Assembly (NCBI GenBank): GCA_019752015.1 | Contig: JAIEMQ010000013.1 | Span: 62,001 to 126,000 of the forward strand | DNA from: Cyanobacteriota bacterium | GTDB taxonomy: Bacteria > Acidobacteriota > Vicinamibacteria > Vicinamibacterales > UBA2999 | Length of the DNA: 64,000 nt | Reading direction: 5' to 3' | Shown: positions 9,779-15,617 of the stretch, piece by piece | Position numbering within the stretch: the stretch's first letter is position 1 | Layout of the letters: every line of letters starts with the position of its first letter | Translations under genes and position numbers: made by a program | The notes under the pieces: model-generated | Told to the model about the DNA's origin: nothing | The model's input: only the letters and a program-made list of their open reading frames with translations | Databases searched by the model: none

Positions 9779-11621
9779 TTAGAGATTGACCGCCCGCGGC
9801 GCGTTCATCATGGCGCGCAATTCGTCGCCTTCCATCACTTCCTTTTCGAGCAGGAAGCGGGTGACCCGCTCGAGGATGTCGCGCCGATCGCGCAGGATGC
9901 GGCGGGCCTCGTTGTGGGCGGCGGCGACGATCAATTTCACTTCCTCGTCGATCAGCCGCGCCGTCTCTTCGGAGTAGAGCCCGCGTTCGGCGGGCATGCC
10001 GAGATCGAGGAAGCGGCCGCGGCGGCTGTGGTCATAGTTCACCGTGCCGAGCTTCTCGCTCATGCCCCATTCGGTCACCATCGATCGCGCCACATCGGTG
10101 ACGCGCTGCAGATCGTTCTGCGCGCCGGTGGAGATCTCGCCGACCGCGATCTCCTCGGCGGCACGGCCGCCGAGCAGGATGGCCATCTGGTTGTTGAGAT
10201 CGCCCTTTTGCATCAGGTAGCGATCTTCCAGCGGCAGTTGCATCGTGTAGCCGAGCGCGCCGAAGCCGCGCGCGACGATCGAAATCTTGTGGACCGGATC
10301 CATGTTGGGCAGTACGCTCGCCACGATGGCGTGGCCGGCCTCGTGATACGCCACGATCTCGCGCTCACGCGTGCTCATCACACGTTTCTTCTCGAGGCCC
10401 GCGATCAGCCGATCGATCGCCTCGTCAAAGTCCTTCATCACCACCGTCTGGCCGTCACGCCGCGCCGCCAGCAGCGCCGCCTCGTTGACGAGGTTCGCCA
10501 GGTCGGCGCCGGCAAAGCCGGCCGTCCGTGCGGCGACCTTGCGCAGGTCGACGGTGGGATCGAGCTTGACGTTGCGGACGTGAATCTTCAGCACTTCCTC
10601 GCGGCCCTTGACGTCGGGCTTGTCCACGAGGACCTGGCGATCGAAACGGCCCGGGCGCATCAACGCCGGATCGAGGACTTCAGGACGATTGGTGGCGGCC
10701 ATGATGATGATCGCCTTGCGCGCGTCGAAGCCGTCCATCTCCGCCAGCAGCTGATTGAGCGTCTGCTCGCGCTCCTCGTGGCTGCCCATCGGGCTTTGCA
10801 CGCGTGCCTTGCCGAGCGCATCCAGCTCGTCGATGAACACGATGCACGGCGCCTTCGCTTCGGCCTGCGCAAACAGATCGCGCACGCGCGCCGCGCCCAC
10901 GCCGACGAACATCTCGACGAACTCGGAGCCGCTCAGGCTGAAGAACGGCACCTTGGCCTCACCGGCGACCGCCCGCGCCAGCAGGGTCTTACCGGTGCCC
11001 GGAGGTCCGACGAGCAGCACGCCCTTCGGGATCTTGCCGCCGAGATTCGTGAACTTGCGGGGCGTCTTCAGGAATTCCACGATCTCGCGCAGCTCCTGCG
11101 CGGCCTCGTCCACACCGGCAACGTCCTGGAACGTCGTCTTGACGTCGTCTTCGGCGTAGATCTTGGCCTTGCTGCGCGCGAACGACATGACGCCGCCTTC
11201 CGCGCCGCCGATCCGGCGGGCGAAGAACGACCAGAGCGCGATGATCACGACGAAGGGCAGCAGCCAGCCGATCACCTCCGGCAGCCAGCGGCTGACCAGC
11301 TCGCCCGAGTACTTCACGCCGGCCTGATCGAGCTCCTCGATCAATTTCGGATCCTCGATGCGCGTCGTCGTGAACGCGGTCGCGCCGTTGTCGGCCTTCT
11401 TCAGCGTGCCGCGAATGACCGTGTCCCCGACCTGGACCTCGGCGACCTGGCCGCCGCGCACCATGCCCTTGAACTCGCTGTACGAGATCGTGCGGCCCGC
11501 CGGCGCCAGGAAATACGCCTGGCCAATGGCCAGCAGCGCCAGCGCCCCGAGCACCCACCACAGCGCGGTGGGCTTCGTAGACGGTTGACGCCGCTCCTTG
11601 CCGCCGGGCGGGAGCGATGGA

Positions 11622-11629
<8 letters not shown>
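9779..11629 (-). CDS. ftsH: ATP-dependent zinc metalloprotease FtsH
   Basis: A 616-residue membrane protease of normal FtsH length. An N-terminal segment with two membrane helices ([20 protein letters not shown] and [18 protein letters not shown]) flanks a small periplasmic domain. The AAA+ module has Walker A GPPGTGKT, Walker [13 protein letters not shown] and the second region of homology [20 protein letters not shown]. The M41 protease motif HEAGH is present and the zinc-ligand Asp segment follows. FtsH degrades misfolded membrane proteins and short-lived regulators. Its ATG lies 8 bases inside the 3' end of clpB, so here ftsH is the last gene of the HspR heat-shock operon. Confidence 0.97.
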
Positions 11630-14168
<2,539 letters not shown>

Positions 14169-14173
14169 CGCTT

Positions 14174-15178
14174 TTAACTTTTAATTTTTAATTTTTCATT
14201 CAGCGCTTCGTAGTGCTTCCGTTCGTCATCCGACAACTGTTTCGGAATATCGACTTCGACATTCGCGTACAGATCGCCGCGGTCGTCGGCCTTGCCGACC
14301 TGCGGCAACCCGTGCCCGCGCAGCCGGAATTTCTGGCCGCTCTGCGTGCCGGCCGGAATCTTCAAGCGCAGCGTCTTCGCCTCCGGCGTCGTCACATCCA
14401 CTTCGCCGCCGAGCACCGCCACCGGCACGGGCACTCGTGCGCGGGTGTAGACGTCTCGGCCTTTCACATCGAACACCGGATGCGGCTTCAGCTGCACCCG
14501 CAGGTACAAATCGCCGCTCGGCGCGCTGCCCGATCCGCGCCCCCCTTCGCCGGCCACGCGCACGCGCGATCCATCCGTGACGCCGGCGGGGATGCGGACT
14601 TCCACGGTCCGCGCATGCCCGTCATGCCGCAGCTGCAATCGCTGCACGCTGCCGCGGATCGCATCTTCGAGATCGAGCTCGAAGGGATGCTCGACGTCCT
14701 GGCCCTTGCGTGCCCGCGGCCTGGCGCGGCCGCCGCGCGCGCCGGTCGATTCCTCCGCGCCGCCCATGCCGCCGAAAAACGTCTTGAAGAAGTCGGAGAA
14801 AGGGCTGTCGGCGCCGCCGCCGCCAAACATCTCCGCCATTTCTTCCTCGGTCATCGTGCGGAAACCGCCGCCGCCTCCGCCGGTGCTCCACTGGCCGCCG
14901 CCGAACGGCCAGCCGCCGCCGTGCGGATTCGCTCCCGGCGGCACGTTCTCGTAGGCGCGCCAGTTCGCGCCGAGCTCGTCGTACTTCTTCCGCTTCTGCG
15001 GATCGCTCAGCACCTCGTTGGCTTCGTTCACTTCCTTGAACTTCGCCTCGGCGCCCTTGTCGCCCGGGTTGACGTCGGGGTGGTACTTGCGCGCCAGCTT
15101 GCGGAAGGCCTGCTTGATCTCCTTGTCCGTGGCGGTCTTCGAGACGCCGAGCGTGGTGTAGTAGTCCTTGAAGTCCAC
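14174..15178 (-). CDS. CbpA-type DnaJ co-chaperone
   Basis: A 334-residue J-protein. I start it at the GTG at 15178, not at the ORF-track start (15598), because the J domain begins directly after this codon ([20 protein letters not shown]) and the upstream extension is only a shadow of the hspR gene. The start overlaps the hspR stop as TAGTG, so translation is coupled. The HPD motif is intact ([12 protein letters not shown]). A Gly-rich linker containing [16 protein letters not shown] follows, and then two DnaJ C-terminal beta domains. The cysteine-rich zinc finger of classical DnaJ is missing, which makes it the CbpA class. It stimulates DnaK ATPase activity. Confidence 0.93.
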
Positions 15179-15582
15179 TATCGCGTCCGCCCTGAGCGAG
15201 GATCGCTTATGCGATCCGAGTCGAATGGGCCGCCTCCGTGATCGAGCCCCAGCAATTCGACGAGCTGATCGATTTCCCGGACCAGCTTGCGGCGATTGGC
15301 GTCGCGCTGCAGGGCCGACGCCTGCATCAAGGGCCGGATGCGCTGCATCGCTTCCGCCACCGACAACAACTGCTGCACGCCTGCAAGATTGACTCCCGAC
15401 TCGTCCACGAGCCGCTTGATGAAGCGCAGCCGCTCGATCTCGTCCTGAGAGTAGAGGCGCATGCTGCCGACGGTCCGTGCCGGACGCACCAGCCCGAGCC
15501 GCTCGTACTTGCGGAGCGTCTGGGGATGCATGTCGAGCATGCGAGCCGCGTCGGAGATGAAGATCAGCGCTACCGTTGACAC
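15178..15582 (-). CDS. hspR: MerR-family heat-shock repressor HspR
   Basis: A 134-residue MerR-family regulator. The helix-turn-helix reads [26 protein letters not shown] with the HspR-type wing [13 protein letters not shown], then a helical C-terminus. HspR represses chaperone operons together with DnaK as co-repressor. The gene heads hspR-cbpA-clpB-ftsH. The GTG start at 15582 begins only 6 bases after a good -10 hexamer (TATACT), so the mRNA is probably leaderless. Acidobacterial HspR is little studied; the family call is secure and the autoregulation is inferred. Confidence 0.92.
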
Positions 15583-15588
15583 GATCTG

Positions 15589-15617
15589 AGTATATCAATT
15601 GATACGAGTCGTATCAA
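15589..15617 (-). promoter_or_regulatory. hspR operon promoter overlapping a perfect 19-bp palindrome
   Basis: On the minus strand TTGATA (15617-15612), a 17-base spacer and TATACT (15594-15589) form a near-consensus sigma70 promoter. Superimposed on it is the perfect palindrome TTGATACGA-G-TCGTATCAA (plus strand 15599-15617) and a second palindrome TATCAATTGATA (15593-15604), giving three TTGATA half-sites. The arrangement fits an HspR operator that blocks RNA polymerase. It differs from the classic HAIR sequence CTTGAGT-N7-ACTCAAG. The terC stop codon is only 4 bases away. Confidence 0.8.

Follow-up and report, generated by a model that had tools for sequence, protein, structure and literature searches.

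A Vicinamibacterales variant of the HAIR operator is fused to a probably leaderless promoter of a putatively autoregulated hspR-dnaJ-clpB-ftsH operon

The minimal operator of the heat-shock repressor HspR has been published as TTGAGYNNNNNNNACTCAA, TTGAGY-N7-ACTCAA (PMC2687793). HspR operators are known to lie over core promoters and to be accompanied by weaker flanking sites that are bound cooperatively; an example is the HspR of Helicobacter pylori and Campylobacter jejuni, whose own cbpA operon has a core promoter overlain by HAIR-like repeats that the repressor binds (PMC6102357, PMC7464140). The HspR regulon of Deinococcus radiodurans, as far as it is cited in PMC2687793, was reported to include dnaJ, clpB and ftsH, and its single HspR also controls dnaK, grpE, lonB and hsp20. 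Literature searches turned up no description of HspR operators for Acidobacteriota and nothing relevant on HspR paralogs.

The locus described here was identified on the minus strand of a 64-kb stretch of DNA from Vicinamibacterales (Acidobacteriota), the whole of which is referred to as the window and numbered from its first letter. The control region comprises 38 bp between the end of a terC-like gene (15621) and the start of hspR1 (15582), and reads GAGAG-TTGATACGACTCGTATCAA-TTGA-TATACT-CAGATC-GTGTCAACGG. Its promoter, TTGATA-17-TATACT at 15617-15589, consists of a -35 element TTGATA (15612..15617), a 17-nt spacer and a -10 element TATACT (15589..15594; consensus TAyACT), and the six-base discriminator CAGATC (15583..15588) separates the -10 from the GTG start codon of hspR1, where transcription would probably begin. 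The -35 is covered by a perfect 19-bp palindrome, TTGATACGA-C-TCGTATCAA (15599..15617), whose left arm is identical with the element and whose right arm ends 4 nt ahead of the -10. We consider this palindrome, for which the order consensus is TTGACACG-N3-CGTATCAA, to be the operator of HspR1. Most relatives carry TTGACA in the left arm, which is an ideal -35; the TTGATA of the window completes the palindrome but gives up one match to the -35 consensus. The original prediction had given the promoter, the palindrome and the 6-nt distance to the GTG with exact letters and coordinates.

The first gene, hspR1 (15178..15582), encodes a MerR-type repressor of 134 aa (Pfam MerR_1) with NCBIfam NF047375 (HspR) as best hit at 101.8 bits, 3.2 bits below the cut-off of 105. 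The protein is longer than those of congeners (about 110-120 aa), and its extra C-terminus (15178-15240) runs to the TAGTG at which the hspR1 stop and the GTG start of dnaJ overlap by 1 nt. A sequence search for a solved HspR structure found none, GlnR being the best match. All genes that follow lie on the same strand: dnaJ (14174..15178; CbpA-like, with J domain and C-terminal domain), the disaggregase gene clpB (11622..14168; TIGR03346, 1339 bits, cut-off 1232) and an ftsH-like membrane protease gene (9779..11629; TIGR01241, 805.8 bits, cut-off 600). A gap of 5 bp separates dnaJ from clpB, and clpB shares 8 bp with ftsH; from this spacing, ftsH is probably the last gene of the operon.

Orthologs of hspR1 were located by tblastn in 46 of 60 genomes (G000-G059), all from the same order. 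A further set of 80 named hspR loci, overlapping the 46, was drawn from Acidobacteria and Vicinamibacterales MAGs plus a few records labelled otherwise; 79 of them had upstream sequence. Records L168, L217, L219, L220 and L240, titled Acidimicrobiia, Bifidobacterium breve and Dehalococcoidia, contain a Vicinamibacterales-type hspR and look mislabelled. Where there was room to see, dnaJ followed hspR in 67 of 75 named loci and clpB in 69 of 71.

Judged from the window sequence alone, neither the promoter match nor the palindrome is beyond chance. The promoter had been called one of the best in the window, and it is indeed the sole sigma-70-like match of at least 10/12 in the 64 kb, with 0.6 expected in shuffles; a perfect odd palindrome of 19 bp is expected 0.88 times per window in shuffled sequence. 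The significance of the site rests on conservation. Its absence before hspR in close relatives had been named as an outcome that would count against it, and the operator was found upstream of hspR1 in all 46 order-mates at no more than 4 mismatches of 16 (41/46 with no more than 2), with a -10-like hexamer at a fixed register in nearly all of them. Among the 79 named loci, mismatches to the order consensus numbered 0 in 29, 1 in 34, 2 in 11, 3 in 2 and 4 in 3, so that 74 had no more than 2, and among 1580 shuffled upstream sequences one reached 3 mismatches and the remainder had at least 4. An exact match to operator and promoter combined (the operator followed after 4 nt by TAyACT) occurred in 28 of 193 class genomes, once per genome and always within the order; a reversed-pattern control gave 0. 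Alignment columns farther upstream of the operator were at background. Together with the gene order, this conserved register supports the proposal of an hspR heat-shock operon whose operator is fused to its promoter.

Within the 5.9-Mb source genome, the exact palindrome is present in one copy and the next-best site of its type is 2 mismatches away; sites with no more than 3 mismatches number 43 per strand, versus 23 for the reversed control, and further HspR1 targets in this genome were discounted on these figures. One relative (G021) has three additional near-copies, ATGACACGGGKCGTATCAA, at C2:26965, C24:20543 and C82:5729, which are possibly a dispersed repeat or additional HspR1 targets.

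The site retains the HAIR skeleton, namely the TTGA-N11-TCAA spacing and the outer letters, and overlaps the promoter as well. Sites of the actinobacterial dnaK-hspR loci, such as TTGAGTCCACCAGACTCAA and TTGAGCCAGTCAGACTCAA, have the same length. The published inner letters, TTGAGY-N7-ACTCAA, are absent: the symmetric positions 5, 6, 14 and 15 differ, being TA/TA in the window and mostly CA/TA in relatives. Because the HAIR geometry is exact and only these four inner positions are changed, the site is a HAIR variant rather than a canonical HAIR. The earlier statement that it is not the actinobacterial HAIR consensus is thus right about the inner letters and wrong about the architecture. By its sequence, the predicted HspR1 operator is a local variant, or dialect, of HAIR that is conserved across one order of Acidobacteriota; the suggestion of a distinct acidobacterial HspR site is thus borne out by a variant conserved before hspR, but one restricted to Vicinamibacterales and not phylum-wide.

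The system shares with that of Actinomycetota (Streptomyces and others) a MerR-type HspR with a 19-bp TTGA-N11-TCAA inverted repeat, putative control of chaperone genes including clpB, and the location of hspR inside a chaperone operon. It differs in the letters TTGAYA...TATCAA and in an operon without dnaK in which hspR comes first under its own operator. Like the H. pylori and C. jejuni operators it lies over the core promoter of its own operon; unlike there, neither HrcA nor CIRCE was seen as a partner at the hspR1 promoter, the HAIR-like letters are not the same, and in putatively leaderless species one flanking half-site falls on the start codon. The likeness to D. radiodurans, as far as its regulon is cited, is one of gene content: dnaJ, clpB and ftsH are the genes of the window operon, whereas the additional D. 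radiodurans targets are not.

This flanking half-site, GTrTCAA, is conserved at alignment columns 35-41, 6 nt past the -10 and 23 bp downstream of the right arm. In the window it reads GTGTCAA (15576..15582) and is formed by the GTG start, the TCA codon of Ser2 and an A, as it is in leaderless hspR1 genes generally. It is kept among relatives both as untranslated leader and as coding sequence. The second codon is TCA in 11 of 15 leaderless hspR1 genes, and TCA makes up 10% of serine codons in ten window genes. In distant members the half-site turns into GACGCAA or GGCGCAA. Since known HspR operators have cooperatively bound weaker flanking sites, its likely role is that of an additional, weak HspR1 site spanning the -10 and the start. 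Two other candidate elements were rejected. The 12-bp palindrome TATCAATTGATA (15593..15604), which joins the right arm to the -10, is private to the source genome, most relatives having [GT]GCC at columns 19-22; the three TTGATA half-sites that it had been said to give are literally present but not conserved, and it is at the start codon that an additional half-site is conserved. An extended -10 (TGn) was not conserved in relatives either.

Taken together, these data suggest an autoregulated heat-shock promoter of the hspR-dnaJ-clpB-ftsH operon with a HAIR-variant operator read by HspR1, a reading to which we assign a probability of about 0.83. Most likely, an HspR1 dimer would bind the 19-bp inverted repeat and thereby block RNA polymerase, since its left arm coincides with the -35 and its right arm stops just short of the -10. 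The weaker half-site over the start codon would probably let a second HspR1 unit stretch the complex, perhaps cooperatively, over both the -10 and the start point. HspR1 would repress its own operon as long as the cell is unstressed, and heat or misfolded protein would release it.

The source genome encodes a second HspR, HspR2 (G000:C4:127392-127835), downstream of dnaK and dnaJ, which passes the NCBIfam HspR cut-off (107.6 versus 105 bits). HspR2 is found phylum-wide (96/119 genomes at E 1e-15), whereas HspR1 was detected in 20 of the 24 order genomes of the phylum draw and in none elsewhere at E 1e-22, that is, in Vicinamibacterales only. Directly after hspR2 on the same strand is a 210-aa ORF (L002:783-1415, in G000:C4) that, read by eye, resembles a sigma-70-type factor with an unusual C-terminal part. 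The dnaK promoter TTGAC[AT]G-N5-cACTCA-nATTT-nATAnT was present in 40 of 45 loci with 17-nt spacing and a HAIR-like right arm. In the source genome the dnaK promoter was its single match within 3 mismatches, and no further HspR2 target was found at that threshold. The main dnaK (G000:C4:129065-130887) has CATACT, 6 nt and then ATG, and is probably leaderless by this layout. A second full-size HSP70 gene (G000:C34:39592-41232) has no HAIR-geometry site upstream, and no CIRCE was found upstream of either dnaK in the source genome. The dnaK-dnaJ-hspR2 system thus resembles the hspR1 promoter in the TTGAC at -35 (for hspR1, in most relatives), the 17-nt spacing, the TTGA-N11-TCA geometry and the 6-nt, probably leaderless start in the genus; it differs in its right arm, ACTCA as in classical HAIR, and in its phylum-wide distribution. 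A search for the operator upstream of dnaK and clpB in relatives had been suggested: clpB has it through the hspR-dnaJ-clpB promoter, but dnaK lies outside the operon under a second HAIR-like dialect linked to HspR2.

The presence of two repressors raises the alternative that the operator is read by HspR2, or by both HspRs, which would make the two operons one regulon instead of two circuits. Both proteins are HspR-like and their operators share the TTGA-N11-TCA geometry, yet we regard this as rather unlikely, as the inner letters consistently differ (GTATCAA versus ACTCA) and the proteins, about 38% identical, fall into two distinct clades, each supported (97/93 and 98/97), and show fixed differences both in the recognition helix (LRKYERLGL in HspR1, LR[LM]YEREGLL in HspR2) and in the wing (mostly GSMR in HspR1, GNTR in HspR2). 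The genomes themselves also speak against it. A site within 1 mismatch occurred in 37 of 46 HspR1-bearing genomes and in 0 of 14 HspR1-less ones, and the seven readable hspR1-less genomes keep dnaJ-clpB with no operator-promoter in front; a single HAIR-spaced match overlapping the dnaJ start codon in G040 looks accidental. Genus members without HspR1 (G002, G003, G006 and G007) retain HspR2 and the ACTCA-type dnaK promoter but have no such site before dnaJ-clpB. This joint absence carries less weight than it might seem to, since operator and hspR are neighbours and a single deletion would remove both. The TATCAA dialect therefore appears to be tied to HspR1, a link partly confounded by adjacency, and the ACTCA dialect to HspR2. 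That the palindrome has no protein reader at all, and is a product of chance or an RNA element such as a terC terminator, is very improbable: although one such palindrome per window is roughly what shuffling predicts, its sequence and register are kept across many genera, even where the upstream gene points the opposite way, and it has no T-run and no terminator call, and transcription is predicted to start downstream of it.

The exact start of the message can be weighed in the same manner. The accepted signature of leaderless genes, a TAnnnT box whose first T is some 12 nt ahead of the start codon, was predicted for 9.7-19.4% of genes in three Acidobacteria (PMC3160421). The first T of the box in the window lies exactly 12 nt ahead of the GTG, and this was repeated in 15 orthologs: the start codon is exactly 6 nt past the -10 in 15 of 46 hspR1 loci, including all five hspR1-bearing genomes of the genus, a few of the 15 also having later in-frame starts. 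The dnaK ATG is likewise exactly 6 nt past its -10 in 15 genomes, where no half-site accounts for the spacing. An in-frame TGA ahead of the GTG in the window makes this codon the sole usable start before the HTH. The hspR1 transcript in this genus thus most likely starts on the GTG, giving a leaderless mRNA, and the predicted start at or next to this codon gains support from the exact spacing at hspR1 and dnaK loci. The promoter could also be real and the hspR message leadered, with transcription starting upstream, for instance at a different promoter or by read-through from terC, or displaced by a few bases. The terC gene runs in the same direction and its end is a mere 38 bp away, so that read-through could be an additional source of transcripts in the source genome; consensus spacing alone cannot place a start site to the base, and 31 of 46 hspR1 orthologs have longer leaders. 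Against the exact spacing and the lone start codon, and with an upstream gene that is not a co-directional terC in most relatives, a leadered message seems improbable. Leaderlessness is not essential to the system, because a leader is present in most of the relatives that belong to other genera.

The locus thus combines an HspR-type operator, probably autorepressing, with a promoter that is probably leaderless. On this comparative evidence it is a well-supported variant, specific to one order, of a system already known, and it gives this abundant soil order an operator defined precisely enough to be tested. A wider reading, which we hold to be evenly balanced, is that Vicinamibacterales have two insulated HspR circuits, HspR2 acting on HAIR (ACTCA) at dnaK and HspR1 on the symmetrically shifted GTATCAA at hspR-dnaJ-clpB. 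In leaderless species the start and second codons would then be a repressor half-site, and DNA binding would therefore constrain the N-terminus of the protein. The HspR paralogs with their own operator dialects would form a natural pair for following a specificity change in MerR-type repressors, and here the start codon of a leaderless gene may at the same time be part of an operator.
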